DNA from: a virus
Reading direction: 5' to 3' (one strand)
IMG/VR virus record: IMGVR_UViG_3300021379_001157
Location: 1-20,749 of that record
Length of the DNA stretch: 20,749 nt
Under the pieces are notes generated by a model that saw only the letters and a list, made by a program, of their open reading frames with translations, did not search any database and was not told where the DNA came from. Every line of letters starts with the position of its first letter. Within the stretch, counting starts at the first letter, position 1. The position numbers and the translations under genes are program-made. Of the stretch, positions 2,784 to 20,749 are shown one piece after another.

Positions 2784-2857
2784 TCACCCAAGCGGTAGGC
2801 ATCGCAATGGGTGACTCGCGATACCTACCATAAGCACCAGTAGGGATAATTTGGTGC
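2784..2857 (-). repeat. Cluster of three inverted repeats in the terL leader
   Basis: Three pairs of arms are visible: TCACCC (2784-2789) with GGGTGA (2809-2814); GGTAGGCATCGC (2794-2805) with GCGATACCTACC (2818-2829), 11 of 12 positions complementary with a 12-nt spacer; and GCACCA (2834-2839) with TGGTGC (2852-2857), again with a 12-nt spacer. The first two pairs interleave, so they cannot both form simple hairpins at once. They could switch, form a pseudoknot, or be bound as DNA. The cluster sits 13 nt upstream of the terL start. Confidence 0.55.
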
Positions 2858-2884
2858 CTAGTAGTTAATAACATTACGCGCGCG

Positions 2885-2967
2885 TATAGTATATATATTA
2901 TATATATTACTCTCTCTCTAAAAGAGAGAGAGATATAATTATATTATATATATTATATATAGGGGTA
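2885..2967. repeat. Alternating AT tract with perfect CT/GA hairpin
   Basis: TA-rich simple sequence flanks CTCTCTCTCT (2910-2919), loop AAAA, GAGAGAGAGA (2924-2933), a perfect 10-bp stem that extends by two more pairs. Such DNA melts easily and could extrude a cruciform. It is a candidate origin or promoter element for the late minus-strand genes, or simply low-complexity spacer. Confidence 0.6.
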
Positions 2968-3124
2968 TAGGATTCCTTGGCATGCTGGCGCATAAATCTA
3001 CCAATTCCTTCACAGGCACTTCTGATTCTTGAACTTTATAGGGGGGGGTCTTTTTGTGAGGATTATATAATTGTTTGTGTGGAACATCATGTATACGCGC
3101 ATGCAGGTACGTGCAGCGTCATGC

Positions 3125-3145
3125 GGGGGTGGGGGTAGGTGGGGG
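3125..3145 (+). other. G-rich tract, possible two-tetrad G-quadruplex
   Basis: Runs of 5, 5, 2 and 5 guanines are separated by T, TA and T. Four runs of at least GG with very short loops could fold a two-tetrad quadruplex. Only three runs reach three or more G, so a three-tetrad form would need a long run to be used twice. A run of eight G lies at 3041-3048. Confidence 0.35.
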
Positions 3146-3233
3146 TGTCGCGTTCCGTCCAAGTTACGATGGGCGAGCCGATTTAACATAATACTTATTA
3201 TCGGATCACCCTGAAATCAAAGTGAGGGAAAAA

Positions 3234-7285: not shown

Positions 7286-7551
7286 CGAAATACACATATC
7301 ACACTGATGCGGGTCATGGTTGGCTAGAAGTGCCGTACCGTGATCTGCTCAACGCAGGGCTGCACATGTCTCAGGTCAGCGGTTACAGCTACGCTCAGGT
7401 CACTAGTCAGCATGTTCCGACACTGTACCTTGAAGAAGACTGCGACATGCCCCTCTTCCTCAATGCCTTACAGGCAAAGGGTGAGGAGTTTGAACTGGTC
7501 GAACAGCATCACAACGGCGATGCATTTATTCGTGAACTTGGGAGAGTATGA
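7282..7551 (+). CDS. Hypothetical early phage protein (89 aa)
   Basis: No family recognised. Small soluble protein of mixed strand and helix, with a Tyr/His-rich N-terminus (MTKYTYHTDAGHGWLEVPYR). The ATG at 7282 overlaps the preceding stop by 4 bases (ATGA), showing translational coupling to the nucleotidase gene, and GGGAGA lies upstream. Its own stop overlaps the start region of the following zinc protein gene. Confidence 0.7.
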   Translation: MTKYTYHTDAGHGWLEVPYRDLLNAGLHMSQVSGYSYAQVTSQHVPTLYLEEDCDMPLFLNALQAKGEEFELVEQHHNGDAFIRELGRV

Positions 7552-8093
7552 TGGAACGTGAAGAAATTTTACAAGAGCTTGGCGGGATGCGCACATGGAA
7601 TAACTTTGCGGCTTCCCTGCTCGTCCAGTACGTCACCAAGGGTGACCTGTCGGAGAAGCAATGGGATGCGGCAGAGCGCACGATCACCAAGGTGAAGCGC
7701 AAAGCTGAACGCCGTGAGGAATTGACGCGGGATGTCGATGTCTCGCGGATCAAGACCTTGCTCGAAACAGCCAACGTCAAGAAGCCTGTCTTCCGCGCGG
7801 CTGAGTTGGCATTCTCGTTGGCCCCTATGAATGGGCGCAATGGTGGTGCCGTGTACGTCAAACGCGGACCCGACTATCAGGGCAAGATCATGGACGGTAA
7901 GTTCATGCCTGTAGGCACCTGTCACACAGCCACAGCGGACGCTGTGGTGCGGGTAGCGTCTGACCCAAGGGGTGAGGCGGTGCAGCACGGTAAGGTCACT
8001 GGGCGGTGCTCATGCTGCGGACGTGAGTTGACTGACCCTGTTTCGATTGAGATGGGCATTGGCCCCATCTGCGCAAGCAACTGGGGATTATGA
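7551..8093 (+). CDS. DUF6011-like protein with C-terminal zinc-binding motif
   Basis: The last about 30 residues, GRCSCCGRELTDPVSIEMGI followed by GPICASNWG, match the DUF6011 signature, a small zinc-binding motif with CxxC plus a later Cys, common in phage and bacterial proteins. Its biochemical role is unknown to me. The N-terminal about 75 residues are helical and basic (RTITKVKRKAERREELTRDV); the middle looks beta-rich. Two adjacent ATG codons (7548 and 7551) are possible; 7551 is better spaced from GGGAG. The gene overlaps the preceding stop and is 2 bp from the next gene, so it belongs in the same coupled block. A nucleic-acid-binding role is plausible inference. Confidence 0.75.
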   Translation: MEREEILQELGGMRTWNNFAASLLVQYVTKGDLSEKQWDAAERTITKVKRKAERREELTRDVDVSRIKTLLETANVKKPVFRAAELAFSLAPMNGRNGGAVYVKRGPDYQGKIMDGKFMPVGTCHTATADAVVRVASDPRGEAVQHGKVTGRCSCCGRELTDPVSIEMGIGPICASNWGL

Positions 8094-8350: not shown

Positions 8351-8580
8351 TGATTTACATGGTAGGAGTGAAGGTCGAGACGATACGTCATGTGACGGTA
8401 GACGCTGCGACGATTGATGAGGCAGAACAGCTTGGCCTCAAAGAAGCTATGGCATTGGTCGGCGGCATCGATGGTACGGTACTTGAGGTATACAGTGACC
8501 CAAAGCAATTGATCGGAGAGACAGAACGTGCCTGTCTGGAATTTGCTCAGGAATATCTTGGAGAAGAGAATGCAGACTGA
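8350..8580 (+). CDS. Hypothetical early phage protein (76 aa)
   Basis: No family recognised. The pattern MVGVKVETIRHVTVDAATID EAEQLGLKEA, a strand-strand-helix with a DEAE-type helix, looks like a small alpha/beta fold seen in many short phage proteins. The one-base overlap with the upstream stop (TAATG) and GAGG upstream support the start at 8350. It overlaps the next gene by 11 bases. Confidence 0.68.
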   Translation: MIYMVGVKVETIRHVTVDAATIDEAEQLGLKEAMALVGGIDGTVLEVYSDPKQLIGETERACLEFAQEYLGEENAD

Positions 8581-8815
8581 CCTTGAAGAATACATCAAAC
8601 AATCAAACGAGCGACTGATCCAACAGTACGCCGATTACAGCATGGACAAGCTCAAGGATGAGCTTGCCAAAGCACGAGACAAACACGATAGGGCGGTGAT
8701 GAACTATCAACGTCACTATCTGAAGTCTGACAAGGTCCACATTGAGGATGCCTCAGTGCGGATAGAGAACCTAAAATTTGTGATCAATTATAGAGAGAGT
8801 GGAGATCAATCATGA
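8570..8815 (+). CDS. Hypothetical coiled-coil early protein (81 aa)
   Basis: No family recognised. Nearly all helix, charged, with heptad-like spacing (YSMDKLKDELAKARDKHDRA), so probably a small coiled-coil oligomer. The start ATG at 8570 lies inside the end of the previous gene, preceded by GGAGAAGAGA. Its stop overlaps the MoxR start by four bases (ATGA), so it is translationally coupled to the AAA+ ATPase and may be part of that cassette. Confidence 0.68.
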   Translation: MQTDLEEYIKQSNERLIQQYADYSMDKLKDELAKARDKHDRAVMNYQRHYLKSDKVHIEDASVRIENLKFVINYRESGDQS

Positions 8816-9831
8816 AGCTATCACAAGCAATTACAATCACTGAGGCAGCGGTCAAGCATGCTCTGAATACACCCTTTGGTCGGGATGCCGAATACGTTGT
8901 GCCGTACCTCGTGTCTGGCGCGGGTATCGGTAAGACCACGAGCGTCAAGGATATCGCAAAGCGATTGGGCATTGGATGCCATATACTGTCACTGGCACAG
9001 TACGATGCGGGTGAGCTTGGCGGTTGGGCAGTCCCATCAGATGATGGTGAGACAATGGTGCGCAAGCGTCCTGATTGGATGCCGACTGACGGTGAGGGCA
9101 TCCTGTTCCTCGACGAGCTTCCCCAAGCACCAGTTGCCAACCAGAACATCGCGGCTCAGATCGTCAACGAACGCCGCGTGGGTCCGCATCATCTTCCTGA
9201 AGGATGGGCAATTGTTGCAGCGGGTAACCGCATGTCTGACCGTGCGGGTACAAACAGCATGCCATCGCACCTCAAGGATCGCCTGATGTTCTTAGAGATT
9301 GAGGCCGATCTGGAAGATACGATTGCCTACTACTACAGCAATCGTGTTCAGGAACGCATCTGTGCGTTCTTACGGTTTCGTCCTGAATGGCTGCACAAGT
9401 TTGATCGTGACGCGGACGCATGCCCATCGCCTCGTTCATGGGAGCGCGTCAGTACGATCATGTCATGGAAGCTTGGCCCACAGGAAGAGCTTGAAGCTTT
9501 TGCAGGTCAGGTTGGTCGCGCAGCTACCGCAGATTTTCATGGCTTCCTCAAGATGTACGACAGTGTGCCAGACATCGACAAGCTAATCGCAAACCCTGCG
9601 AGTGCTGATGTCCCAAGCGATCCCGCTGTGCTGTACGCGATCTGTGCTGCCATCTCTTCCCGCGTGAGCGAGAAGAATGTGGGCAACGTGATCAAATACC
9701 TTGAGCGTTTGCCTCAGCAAGAGTTCGCCGCTTTCGTCATCAAGGATGCGGTCAACCGCACCAAGGACTTGAAGCAGTCTCAAGCGATCCGCGATTGGAT
9801 CATGAAGACAGGTAAAAACCTGATCCTTTAA
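8812..9831 (+). CDS. MoxR-family AAA+ ATPase
   Basis: MoxR ATPases use ATP to remodel or activate partner proteins, usually a VWA-domain protein encoded next door, as in RavA-ViaA. This 339-aa protein has Walker A GAGIGKTT (36-43), Walker B ILFLDE (97-102), sensor-1 Asn in AAGN (N139) and a following LKDR arginine (R157), with the helical C-terminal region usual for the clade. Its partner candidate, a VWA/HExxH protein, lies downstream at 10104, separated by a zinc-ribbon gene. The start overlaps the preceding stop (ATGA) and is preceded by GGAGATCAATC. A 10-bp hairpin lies 16 bp after its stop. The biochemical class is firm; the phage role is unknown. Confidence 0.9.
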   Translation: MKLSQAITITEAAVKHALNTPFGRDAEYVVPYLVSGAGIGKTTSVKDIAKRLGIGCHILSLAQYDAGELGGWAVPSDDGETMVRKRPDWMPTDGEGILFLDELPQAPVANQNIAAQIVNERRVGPHHLPEGWAIVAAGNRMSDRAGTNSMPSHLKDRLMFLEIEADLEDTIAYYYSNRVQERICAFLRFRPEWLHKFDRDADACPSPRSWERVSTIMSWKLGPQEELEAFAGQVGRAATADFHGFLKMYDSVPDIDKLIANPASADVPSDPAVLYAICAAISSRVSEKNVGNVIKYLERLPQQEFAAFVIKDAVNRTKDLKQSQAIRDWIMKTGKNLIL

Positions 9832-9847
9832 AAACAATAGCTTACGC

Positions 9848-9873
9848 GGATAGTTGATGGCCTTCAACTATCC
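9848..9873 (+). terminator. Hairpin after the MoxR gene, terminator or attenuator
   Basis: GGATAGTTGA (9848-9857), loop TGGCCT, TCAACTATCC (9864-9873) form a perfect 10-bp stem, followed by a T-rich but interrupted stretch. It could be a weak terminator, an attenuator or an mRNA-stabilising end. The GTTC palindrome at 9882 follows at once. Confidence 0.55.
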
Positions 9874-9881
9874 TGTTTATT

Positions 9882-9893
9882 GTTCTATTGAAC
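9882..9893. promoter_or_regulatory. Dispersed palindrome site 5 (GTTCTATTGAAC)
   Basis: Between the 10-bp hairpin after MoxR and the zinc-ribbon gene, followed by six T and GGAGAG. Same architecture as site 4. Confidence 0.7.
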
Positions 9894-9909
9894 TTTTTTG
9901 GAGAGAGAT

Positions 9910-10104
9910 ATGCACGTATTTACGTGTCCATATTGTCATACCCTGTTCAAGGTGGGCCACTTAGAGTGGTCTGCCCTGACATGTATCAACGAAACATGTG
10001 GGCGTGACATTTACTTGGACGTTGAGATCACATTGAACCAAGCCTTTGAGGCTGTGTTCAACAAAGAAAATACAATTGAGAAAGTGATAGAGGAGATATC
10101 CTGA
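9910..10104 (+). CDS. Small zinc-ribbon protein between MoxR and VWA genes
   Basis: A 64-aa protein with an N-terminal zinc ribbon: CPYC (6-9) and a second knuckle CINETC (about 29-34), followed by a helical tail. Such ribbons bind nucleic acid or protein partners. The start ATG at 9910 has GGAGAGAG directly upstream; an earlier TTG would overlap this Shine-Dalgarno sequence. The gene begins after a hairpin and a GTTC palindrome, so its expression may be set separately from the MoxR gene. Its stop overlaps the VWA gene start by one base, suggesting coupled synthesis. An adaptor role for the ATPase/VWA pair is inference from position. Confidence 0.75.
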   Translation: MHVFTCPYCHTLFKVGHLEWSALTCINETCGRDIYLDVEITLNQAFEAVFNKENTIEKVIEEIS

Positions 10105-11228
10105 TGGATGCACAAATGAAAGTGTCGCGTTCGATTACGCGGCTTGTGGTAAAGCACCCATTCTTTGGGTCCATTGCCCTGTCCCTGCGTGTTGAGCCTG
10201 ATCCGACTGTCAGCACAATGTGTACTGATGGCAAGTTCATCAAGTGGAACCCAGAGTTCGTTGACACGATGGATCAAGAAGAGGTTGTAGGCGTTATGGC
10301 CCACGAGGTCTGCCACGTCACATTCAAGCACCCTCTGCGCCGTGGTGATCGTGACCCAGAACTTTGGAATATCGCCACTGACTTTGCGATCAACGACATC
10401 CTGATTGAGGCGGGGTTCACCCTGCCAGAGGGCGGTCTGCATGATCCACAGTACAGCGGCCTAAGTGCTGAGGCTATCTTTGATAGACTGCCAGAGGATG
10501 CCAAGGAACGCTACGGTCAGGCAGCGGGTGTCGGTGAGGTTGTCGATGCAACTGATGGCAACGGCAATGCACTATCCCCTGCGGAACAACAGCAGATGGA
10601 AGCTGACATCGATAGCAAGGTCATGATGGCTGCTACTGGTGCCAAGGCAGTGGGCAACCTACCCGCCAAGATCAAGCAGTTGATCGAACAGATGAAGCGC
10701 AGCCAAGTCGATTGGCGTGACGTGATGCGTAGGTTTATCGGTGGCGATCAGCCAGACGATTACAGCATGCGCAAGCCTCAGCGTAAGATGTATCACACGA
10801 ACGGTATCGTGGCCCCATCGATCCTGAAGATGGGTGCGGGTGACGTTGTTGTACTGTGCGATAGCAGCGGCTCTGTGTCGGGCCGTGAGATGTCGTTCTT
10901 CCTTGGTGAGTTGAATGCGATTAGCCAAGACATCAAGCCACAGTCAATCACAGTGATCACCTTTGATGCTGAGGTGCAGACGGTGCGCCGCTATGAGCAG
11001 GGCGATGAGGTCGATAAGATTGAGGTCGGTGGTCGAGGTGGCACGTTGGTATCACCCGCGTTCAAATACGTTGAGGACAACGAGTTGAACGTGGATAACA
11101 TGGTCGTGTTTACTGACTTGGGCATCAACGATTACCCAGATGAGCCGCACTACCCAGTGCTATGGATTTCATCATGGGCTAACGCCAACCCCGCACCGTT
11201 TGGTCAGACAACATATCTAGAAACATAG
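10104..11228 (+). CDS. VWA-domain protein with HExxH metallopeptidase-like motif (DUF2201-like)
   Basis: The 374-aa protein has two parts. The N-terminal part has HEVCH (67-71) in GVMAHEVCHVTFKHP plus DFAIND (93-98), the pattern of zinc metallopeptidase-like (DUF2201-type) domains. The C-terminal part is a von Willebrand A domain with an apparently complete MIDAS: D253, S255 and S257 in CDSSGS, T314 in RGGT and D338 in FTDLG. Proteins of this architecture pair with MoxR ATPases, and the MoxR gene is two genes upstream. A helical linker (about 160-215) joins the parts. Proteolytic activity is not proven. The start overlaps the zinc-ribbon stop by one base. The archaeal virus ATV also carries a MoxR/VWA pair, so viral use of the pair has precedent. 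Confidence 0.85.
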   Translation: MDAQMKVSRSITRLVVKHPFFGSIALSLRVEPDPTVSTMCTDGKFIKWNPEFVDTMDQEEVVGVMAHEVCHVTFKHPLRRGDRDPELWNIATDFAINDILIEAGFTLPEGGLHDPQYSGLSAEAIFDRLPEDAKERYGQAAGVGEVVDATDGNGNALSPAEQQQMEADIDSKVMMAATGAKAVGNLPAKIKQLIEQMKRSQVDWRDVMRRFIGGDQPDDYSMRKPQRKMYHTNGIVAPSILKMGAGDVVVLCDSSGSVSGREMSFFLGELNAISQDIKPQSITVITFDAEVQTVRRYEQGDEVDKIEVGGRGGTLVSPAFKYVEDNELNVDNMVVFTDLGINDYPDEPHYPVLWISSWANANPAPFGQTTYLET

Positions 11229-11236
11229 GAGTGAAG

Positions 11237-11845
11237 ATGAGAGAGGATGAGATCGATGCTCTGCTTGATGTAATGGGTATCGATCTTAGCCCATTCGATG
11301 AGAATGCAGAGTTCGCAAAGCCAAGGGTGGATGATTACCTTGGCGATGGAGATATAGAATTACCAATAAAAGGAGAGGTAGCCGTGAATACAGATAAGGC
11401 ATACAACGTGGACTACGCGAAGGTCAAAGCCGCACGAAAAGCGTCAGGGTACACACAAAAGAAAGTCGCTGACATCATTGGAATGCATGCTTCAAACTAT
11501 TGCCAGTTCGAGAGAGGCAATGCGGGTATCAAGAAAGATCAACTTGCAAAAGCTGCCAAGTTATTTGGCATTGATTACGATGACTGCTTCTACAAGAAGA
11601 GTACCTACGCAGGCAGTAAAAAGCAGCAAGCTGCTGAATTAAATACAGTGCTTCCAGTGAATTCGCCTGTTCGCAGTAGAGCATCAGCAGCAATGTTGCT
11701 AAGTGCTGAGAAGAAGAAGAGCCTGTTGGCTCATGCTGATGGTTTGCGTCAAGGTCTTGCGATTATGGTGGGCAAGGAGAATGTTGATCCTGTCTTAGCT
11801 ATATGCCGATCAATAATAGAATGTGAACGCCGTGCGGAATACTGA
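11237..11845 (+). CDS. Xre/Cro-type HTH regulator with N-terminal extension
   Basis: Residues about 60-116 form a Cro/C1-type helix-turn-helix (VKAARKASGYTQKKVADIIG followed by MHASNYCQFERG), so this is a DNA-binding regulator. An acidic N-terminal extension of about 50 residues precedes it and a helical region follows (202 aa in all). The ATG at 11237 has ATAGGAG upstream and starts 8 bp after the VWA gene. Inside the frame, AAAGGAGAGG is followed by GTG at 11384 (residue 50), so a shorter HTH-only product may also be made. A strong terminator and a 12-bp palindrome follow, as for an autoregulated repressor gene. It is one candidate reader of the dispersed GTTC palindrome; target and role (repressor or antirepressor) are unknown. 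Confidence 0.82.
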   Translation: MREDEIDALLDVMGIDLSPFDENAEFAKPRVDDYLGDGDIELPIKGEVAVNTDKAYNVDYAKVKAARKASGYTQKKVADIIGMHASNYCQFERGNAGIKKDQLAKAAKLFGIDYDDCFYKKSTYAGSKKQQAAELNTVLPVNSPVRSRASAAMLLSAEKKKSLLAHADGLRQGLAIMVGKENVDPVLAICRSIIECERRAEY

Positions 11846-11852
11846 CCCTTGG

Positions 11853-11878
11853 CCCCGCGATCTGCGGGGTTTTCTTTT
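11853..11878 (+). terminator. Intrinsic terminator after the HTH gene
   Basis: CCCCGC (11853-11858), loop GATCT, GCGGGG (11864-11869), then TTTTCTTTT. A compact GC stem followed by a T-run, 8 bp after the stop codon, is a textbook Rho-independent terminator. Confidence 0.85.
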
Positions 11879-12596: not shown

Positions 12597-13352
12597 ATGA
12601 AAAGCAACAATCCAGATATCAATAATCATCATGCGATACGTCACCTTTCATATGCAATTGAAAAGTACTTTGAGGCTTATGATTTCTCAAATGACAACAA
12701 GAAGGACATCGCTTTAAGTCCATCGCAATATGGGTGGAAAGCATTTGATTATGACACTGCACCAAAGTTATTCAAGAGCCTACCAGATGAGGACGTAGGC
12801 TATGCTCAACGATATGGCTCTCATTTACTGAAGAGAATACAAGAACTACGTGCAATGCGAAAATCAACACCATCCATGCAGACTGTTATCGAAAAAGCCA
12901 AAGAGGCAACCAAGCTATACGGCGTGTCCTCTTTGAACGATGCGTTCCCATCTATCAGTTGGGAAGTCACGCCGTATACTACTGGCTCAATGTACTGCGA
13001 GAGATTGCGTGGCGTATGGGGGGTAAACTATGAGGTTGGCATCCCTGTCACTTGGGGTAAGCGCGTTTACGATCAGGGCATCGATAACGTCAAAGCAGGT
13101 GATGGCATGCGCTTCATCATGGATGCTAAGGAGAGGAAGCTAGACCGCCTTAACGACATAGGCATCCGCGCGTTCTCAGTTGTTGCACTCAAGGTCAAGA
13201 ACAAAGAGGCTGAGTACGACAATGCTTGGGTTATGAAGTACGAAACCTCTGGTGATCCAGTGACTGCTATCCAAGCTGAGTTCTCTAAATGTGAGAGCTT
13301 GATTACAAGACGCATCAAGGATACTGTTACTAAAGAGTTGATGGATTTCTGA
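12597..13352 (+). CDS. Hypothetical phage protein (251 aa)
   Basis: No family recognised. The N-terminal part (1-90) is mixed and aromatic; the middle is rich in charged helices (about 85-110). The C-terminal half (about 120-215) looks like an alternating beta domain (GIPVTWGKRVYDQGIDNVKA, GIRAFSVVALKVKNKEAEYD), then a helical end. No metal-binding cluster, P-loop or membrane segment is seen. AAAAGGAGTGG before ATG 12597 is a strong ribosome binding site, and the dispersed palindrome lies directly upstream, so the gene heads its own small block. Its stop overlaps the next start by one base. Confidence 0.7.
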   Translation: MKSNNPDINNHHAIRHLSYAIEKYFEAYDFSNDNKKDIALSPSQYGWKAFDYDTAPKLFKSLPDEDVGYAQRYGSHLLKRIQELRAMRKSTPSMQTVIEKAKEATKLYGVSSLNDAFPSISWEVTPYTTGSMYCERLRGVWGVNYEVGIPVTWGKRVYDQGIDNVKAGDGMRFIMDAKERKLDRLNDIGIRAFSVVALKVKNKEAEYDNAWVMKYETSGDPVTAIQAEFSKCESLITRRIKDTVTKELMDF

Positions 13353-19898: not shown

Positions 19899-20749
19899 TT
19901 ATCGATAGTCCTTCATGAGCATATTGCCACGAGCGTACAGCATTTGCTTCTGCTTATCTAATCGCTCTAAAAGCAACTGGCGCTGACTATCAGACAAAGC
20001 TACATTGTCGCGGATAGCATTTTGCTGCCGCGATATTTTCTTGATGGCATTATTGATAGCTTTAATTCGAGGAAGAAGTGCAATCTCTTCAGCATACTTT
20101 TCCCTCGCCCTCATAAGTCTACTGCGATCACCCGCCTCTTGTGCTGCTTTTATTTCAGAACCTACATTCAGAATGCGGTCACGCTTCTCAACGAACATGC
20201 CTATGTTCTCGCGCTCAGATACACTACCGATTGCTTTACGAACGAAAGGTATTTCCCTTGTAAGGTCTTCACTGAAACCATCGGTGTAGATACGAGCAGG
20301 AAGCTCACCTGTTCTCTGAACAAATCTACCAATACCACCAGTCAAATACTCAAACCAGTAGTCCATGATCTCTGGGTTCCAATCTACAAACCCAGACATT
20401 TCAGTAGTGCCGCCAGTGAGTGAGTTCAGGTTGTTTGTCACCCAACGTGCTGATGGACTAACGCTATTAAAGTAGCGTTGGCTATCAGGCGATTGATCCC
20501 CAGGATACTGCTGCTTATATATTGGCACTCCCGCATAGTTTTCATTACGCATGATCTCAATGAATGGATCAGCCACAGTTGGTGCCACAAAGTTCGCCAT
20601 GTTCTCAGTGCCGCCGATTGGGTTAAGGGCATCCACTGCAGTCATGATGATTGAGTTGGCACCCTCTGATGCAGAGTATTCTCCACGTAGTGTACGGCTA
20701 AACGCACGACCCGCATTAACAGCCATGTTCAAACCATATGGCATTGGTA
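19899..20749 (-). CDS. Polyvalent structural protein, C-terminal LPD38-like part (partial)
   Basis: Only the C-terminal about 283 residues are inside the window; the frame is open past the right edge. The segment starting MPYGLNMAVNAGRAFSRTLR, with ALNPIGG, PTVADPFIEIM and LTGG...GFVDWNPE...GGIGRF, matches the LPD38 domain found near the end of the very large polyvalent proteins of podovirus-like phages, which are injected with DNA and carry several enzymatic domains. The last about 110 residues are highly charged helices, probably coiled coil. It is a late gene converging on the recombination operon. The rest of the protein must be outside this window. Confidence 0.78.
   Translation of the reverse strand, partial: PMPYGLNMAVNAGRAFSRTLRGEYSASEGANSIIMTAVDALNPIGGTENMANFVAPTVADPFIEIMRNENYAGVPIYKQQYPGDQSPDSQRYFNSVSPSARWVTNNLNSLTGGTTEMSGFVDWNPEIMDYWFEYLTGGIGRFVQRTGELPARIYTDGFSEDLTREIPFVRKAIGSVSERENIGMFVEKRDRILNVGSEIKAAQEAGDRSRLMRAREKYAEEIALLPRIKAINNAIKKISRQQNAIRDNVALSDSQRQLLLERLDKQKQMLYARGNMLMKDYR

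Follow-up and report, generated by a model that had tools for sequence, protein, structure and literature searches.

Genes gp24 and gp25 of bacteriophage N4 are among the 14 core genes of the N4-like phages, in which 24 is listed as unknown and 25 as carrying a vWFA domain (PMC4193335). A 2021 study described, in jumbo phages, the pairing of MoxR with a vWA protein that has an N-terminal metallopeptidase, and proposed a role in virion assembly for it (PMC7824862). Since both the N4 core genes and the jumbo-phage pair had already been described, the MoxR/VWA pair itself is not new. Here, we analysed such a pair in an IMG/VR phage record (IMGVR_UViG_3300021379_001157), a fragment of 20,749 bases which is called the window throughout; its source is a virus of marine bacteria, in a mid-sized podovirus-like phage group. 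The two genes in question are:

8812..9831, + strand: MoxR-type AAA+ ATPase, N4 gp24 homologue, 339 amino acids (phrog_1297, fold and motifs)
10104..11228, + strand: VWA adaptor with an N-terminal metallopeptidase domain (DUF2201_N plus DUF2201), N4 gp25 homologue, 374 amino acids (Pfam and PHROG)

Judged by sequence, this is a new member of the N4 gp24/gp25-type MoxR-DUF2201 pairs, with all three traits of that type present. The window and N4 share homologous proteins encoded side by side in the same order, with all catalytic residues and all residues of the metal ion-dependent adhesion site (MIDAS) retained; however, identity is only 26-29%, and the 251-amino-acid gene, the ribbon gene and the helix-turn-helix (HTH) gene found near the window pair (described below) were not detected beside the N4 pair. 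The group 2.2 pair of jumbo phages shows the same pairing and the same fused metallopeptidase domain as described (PMC7824862), whereas the window pair belongs to a mid-sized podovirus-like group and is accompanied by the 251-amino-acid third gene. Among cellular systems, NorQ/NorD and CbbQ/CbbO likewise combine a MoxR ATPase with a VWA partner and provide the nearest solved ATPase folds, but the VWA partner in the window has a metallopeptidase domain. The same MoxR plus VWA logic is found in RavA-ViaA; when the N-terminus of the window VWA protein was compared, it proved to be DUF2201_N and not a ViaA-type domain.

Domains and conserved residues of the pair

The ATPase matched phrog_1297 far beyond chance in a PHROG search (E 1e-74). 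Its Pfam AAA_3 (MoxR) score was 17.2 bits against a cut-off of 27, which is a convenience threshold; the protein is a divergent member. Walker A K41, Walker B D101 and E102, sensor 1 N139, the arginine finger R157 and sensor 2 P207-R208 are all present and conserved in the phage and chromosomal comparisons. The AlphaFold2 model (mean predicted local distance difference test score, pLDDT, 86) gave NorQ, NorQ with the NorD VWA domain, and CbbQ as its top Foldseek matches, and VIA-align 2 likewise ranked CbbQ and NorQ highest (Z 14.5 to 13.8), narrowly ahead of other AAA+ proteins. NorQ and CbbQ are MoxR ATPases with VWA partners. By sequence profile, the closest PDB relative was Midasin, an AAA+ machine which bears a MIDAS domain.

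The second protein matched phrog_1314 (E 4e-103), and Pfam recognised in it both DUF2201_N, a "putative metallopeptidase" (E 7e-50), and DUF2201, "VWA-like" (E 8e-23), together with Peptidase_M48 barely above the cut-off. In an alignment of 26 phage VWA proteins, N4 included, the residues H67, E68 and H71 of the HEVCH motif, H76, N89, D93 and N97, as well as MIDAS residues D253, S255, S257, T314 and D338, were invariant in all 26. For a chromosomal comparison, a scan of GTDB gave 276 relatives, 80 of which were kept, and residues were checked in 75 homologues: HExxH, H76, N89, D93, N97 and DxSxS are identical wherever the position aligns, and T314 and D338 are near-invariant. Taken together, the conserved residues of both proteins would fit a pair in which the ATPase, the MIDAS and the zinc peptidase are all active. 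In the AlphaFold2 model (mean pLDDT 83), residues 244-374 were identified by a fold search as a VWA domain (Z about 12); the PDB fold matches for the whole-protein model were filled by the VWA domain, with no metallopeptidase fold in the list, and a sequence search gave no convincing PDB relative. The family is labelled "HNH endonuclease" in PHROG and RefSeq (phrog_1314), a label not supported for the window member, which has no HNH match in Pfam and has DUF2201_N and VWA instead. N4 gp25 (contig L022, 2165-3307) bears the same label.

Neighbouring genes were counted on contigs of IMG/VR relatives with enough flanking room, so the denominator differs per gene. The ATPase gene adjoins the VWA gene in 52 of the 52 contigs with room, and the two are also neighbours in other phages. 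Among sequenced phages, tblastn found the VWA protein in 759 records and the ATPase in 792. The N4 homologues of the pair are gp24 and gp25. None of the PADLOC defence models, among which no VMAP model (vWA-MoxR conflict systems) was searched, matched the ATPase, the ribbon or the VWA protein. These results bear out the core of a sequence-only reading of this DNA, made earlier by a model. Each of its four genes is present as an open reading frame (ORF) at the coordinates that it gave. The MoxR ATPase has the Walker motifs, K41 included, and matches phrog_1297; the complete MIDAS and the HEVCH metallopeptidase-like motif are in place and conserved; and the domain matches, conserved motifs and strict adjacency uphold its view of a MoxR/VWA chaperone-type module with a plausible metallopeptidase.

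The pair corresponds to N4-like core genes that have been listed without a function since 2014 (PMC4193335) and occurs in more than 700 phage records. Its VWA member frequently bears the HNH endonuclease label. Naming the pair as an AAA+ ATPase with a putative metallopeptidase, with a defined core and a newly noticed third gene, points to particular residues for mutagenesis in a tractable system, N4 with E. coli K-12. Should the peptidase prove active, phages would widely carry an ATP-dependent metalloprotease whose two parts are encoded by separate genes.

Proposed mechanism and its alternatives

We propose, with a probability of about 0.5, that the pair is an ATP-driven remodelling and clipping machine whose role is the maturation of a phage complex, probably the virion. 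The MoxR protein would assemble into a hexameric ring, onto which the VWA domain of the 374-amino-acid protein would dock. The target, gripped via the MIDAS metal ion, would then be pulled or distorted by ATP hydrolysis and cut by the tethered N-terminal zinc peptidase. We infer the hexamer, the docking mode and the proteolysis; docking and the MIDAS grip are proposed by analogy with NorQD, in which the MIDAS residues are required for action on the target and the VWA domain has been modelled docked on the ring (PMC9976466), and the peptidase would be an addition made by the adaptor here.

Two other explanations differ from this scheme. The first one, which we consider unlikely, is that the pair is a chaperone only and that its HExxH domain binds metal or target structurally, without cutting. 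NorQD, CbbQO and RavA-ViaA are indeed non-proteolytic MoxR-VWA pairs (see also PMC9976466), and our search of the literature on the function of DUF2201 or COG3864 found no experiment and no report of proteolysis by a DUF2201 protein. However, the HExxH glutamate, needless for a structural zinc, is invariant in the aligned phage proteins and in the 75 chromosomal ones. The second one, a metal-chelatase-like module of the CobS/CobT type, is very improbable: CobS/CobT and Mg-chelatase also couple an AAA+ protein with a VWA protein, but no large chelatase subunit was recognised within the 20.7-kb fragment, and the N-terminal domain matches DUF2201_N.

As to the role of the proposed remodelling and clipping machine, virion maturation, as proposed for the jumbo phages (PMC7824862), would be the most likely. 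In cyanophage S-TIM5 the neighbours of the pair are Hsp20 and virion genes, and in roseophage RPP1 gp24/gp25 are near a second structural module (PMC4193335), both of which favour virion maturation; moreover, ATV tail assembly is reported to require a MoxR-vWA pair (cited in PMC7824862). Several points weigh against this role. The pair is not known to have any activity, to form a complex or to give a phenotype. In the window, structural genes are not nearby, and the surroundings consist of small early-type genes with replication genes in the vicinity. The N4 gp24/gp25 transcripts are middle, not late (PMC4193335). Finally, HEAT/LRV-repeat or DUF3150 proteins accompany the chromosomal pairs, so that the role of these pairs in the cell is not virion assembly.

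The chromosomal DUF2201 plus MoxR loci come from cyanobacteria, Acidobacteria, Chloroflexi and the Thermus group, and in most of the 80 kept loci the ATPase gene lies beside the VWA gene. They encode the same two proteins with the same invariant residues as the window and differ from it by their HEAT/LRV-repeat or DUF3150-like companions: 41 of the 80 encode a protein from a cluster whose tested members are HEAT/LRV repeat proteins, and 8 encode one from another cluster, in which one of two tested members weakly matches DUF3150. In phage MinM2, an annotated DUF3150 protein sits between the two genes of the pair. The motor-adaptor pair may thus be the fixed part of a system in which the third component changes. 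A ThiF protein was also seen near three Acidobacteria loci.

The same machine could instead act on a host target, for takeover or counter-defence in the early or middle phase of infection, a possibility which we hold only tentatively. It would suit both the position of the window pair among small accessory genes near replication genes and the middle transcription of N4 gp24/gp25 (PMC4193335), and the accessory genes nearby vary between relatives. The pair itself, however, belongs to the N4-like core set (PMC4193335) and is highly conserved among phages of unrelated hosts, unlike typical fast-changing anti-host genes. Maturation of virion proteins is slightly favoured over host takeover.

A more specific version of the virion role, that the pair is dedicated to a giant virion-packaged protein which it keeps unfolded, processes or loads, seems improbable on present evidence. 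In a small hand-picked sample, N4, Thermus phage phiFa, MinM2 and the window's group, all of which bear the pair, have one ORF of 2775-3512 amino acids each (2831-3149 in the window's group); the giant protein of N4 is the virion RNA polymerase. The pair-free terminase relatives HTVC027P, HTVC023P, 023Pt_psg01, DSL-LC04, CRP-901 and Pam1 have no ORF above 1388 amino acids. There are exceptions to this link: CRP-7 has the pair and nothing above 1371 amino acids in the stretch read, and S-TIM5 has the pair with a largest ORF of 1833 amino acids. Positions 19899-20747 of the window are the C-terminal end of a giant ORF (phrog_14770/phrog_616), which measures 2980-3149 amino acids in longer relatives.

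A third gene and variable neighbours

Around the pair, the following further features were found:

12597..13352, + strand: conserved third gene of the neighbourhood, 251 amino acids, outside the coordinates of the sequence-only reading
9910..10104, + strand: probable zinc ribbon, accessory, 64 amino acids from ATG, with CxxC...CxxxxC
11231..11845, + strand: Xre-type HTH regulator, accessory, 204 amino acids (HTH_3, E 2e-8)
8570..8815, + strand: predicted coiled-coil protein, accessory, 81 amino acids, in the closest relatives only
9848..9873, + strand: terminator-like hairpin between MoxR and ribbon (hairpin call)
11851..11871, + strand: terminator-like hairpin (hairpin call)

Of the 46 contigs that continue for 1.6 kb or more downstream of the pair, 40 contain the 251-amino-acid gene. 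In the most divergent relatives (L075-L080, L084, L091, L055) it begins 25 base pairs past the VWA gene or overlaps it, and it is more distant where accessory ORFs are inserted. Because of this conserved association with the pair, its product is a more promising candidate than either the ribbon or the HTH protein, and may be a partner or a substrate adaptor; the co-occurrence lies inside one phage group and is not proof of joint function. A Pfam search with the protein gave no match, and no convincing solved relative was found by sequence. Of the homologues considered, DUF3150 (hhalign probability 0.1%) and the MinM2 gene after VWA were unsupported, and CRP-7 gp16 was marginal (probability 37%).

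The 64-amino-acid protein is probably a real zinc ribbon, because the CxxC...CxxxxC spacing of its four cysteines is retained in copies that are just 36-38% identical. Pfam and PHROG searches gave no noteworthy match to it, and none was found in sequenced phages. The gene occupies the gap between MoxR and VWA in few relatives, namely 8 contigs by one test and 11 when diverged copies are included (of 52-57); elsewhere the gap holds an unrelated ORF of 61-65 amino acids, in another clade, or is empty. Similarly, VWA is followed by the HTH gene in 3 of 53 contigs, while the slot after VWA is taken by a different ORF of 86 amino acids in contigs L003-L005 and holds an extra one of 78 amino acids in L006.

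Thus, while some details of the sequence-only reading proved sound here, its larger picture did not. The ribbon can fairly be called coupled to the VWA gene, as the two ORFs overlap by one base (TGATG), and the HTH regulator with a terminator is there, with its HTH_3 match and the terminator-like hairpin at 11851-11871. By contrast, the four-gene cassette or multi-part machine that it had proposed is not supported, since the ribbon and HTH genes are absent or replaced in most relatives. A lack of conservation of these two genes beside MoxR/VWA had been named in advance as a refuting result, and this is what the relatives show. Nor can the coiled-coil gene at 8570 be counted as a machine part, as it is not conserved and occurs in the closest relatives only. 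The ribbon, HTH and coiled-coil genes are variable, exchangeable extras.

Two further observations concern this region. The hairpin after MoxR (gap 9832-9875) gives way to unrelated hairpins in some relatives, with the flanking genes retained. A DUF6011 gene (7548-8093) is retained upstream of MoxR in several distant relatives without the ribbon and HTH genes.

A dispersed palindrome

The gap between MoxR and VWA also contains one copy of a repeated element:

9881..9894, no strand assigned: palindrome copy AAAAGTTCAATTGAACTTTT, immediately before the ribosome-binding site of the ribbon gene

This conserved palindrome is dispersed in the window, at 1240, 3233, 3896, 6811, 9881, 12569, 17982 and 19885, mostly at gene boundaries, and most relatives have a copy in the MoxR-VWA gap. 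In 14 of 15 related contigs, similar sites are strongly over-represented. Most of these contigs have 9-18 on each strand, where the reversed control gives 0-3; one contig has 6-7, and the fifteenth is not enriched. Lysogeny was considered as an explanation and set aside, there being no integrase in the 15 related contigs. Of 60 sites in the window and four relatives, 43 fall outside gene cores, where 13% would be expected, and several are found 14-18 bases ahead of a start codon. The simplest reading is that the palindrome is a candidate operator of a dimeric regulator.

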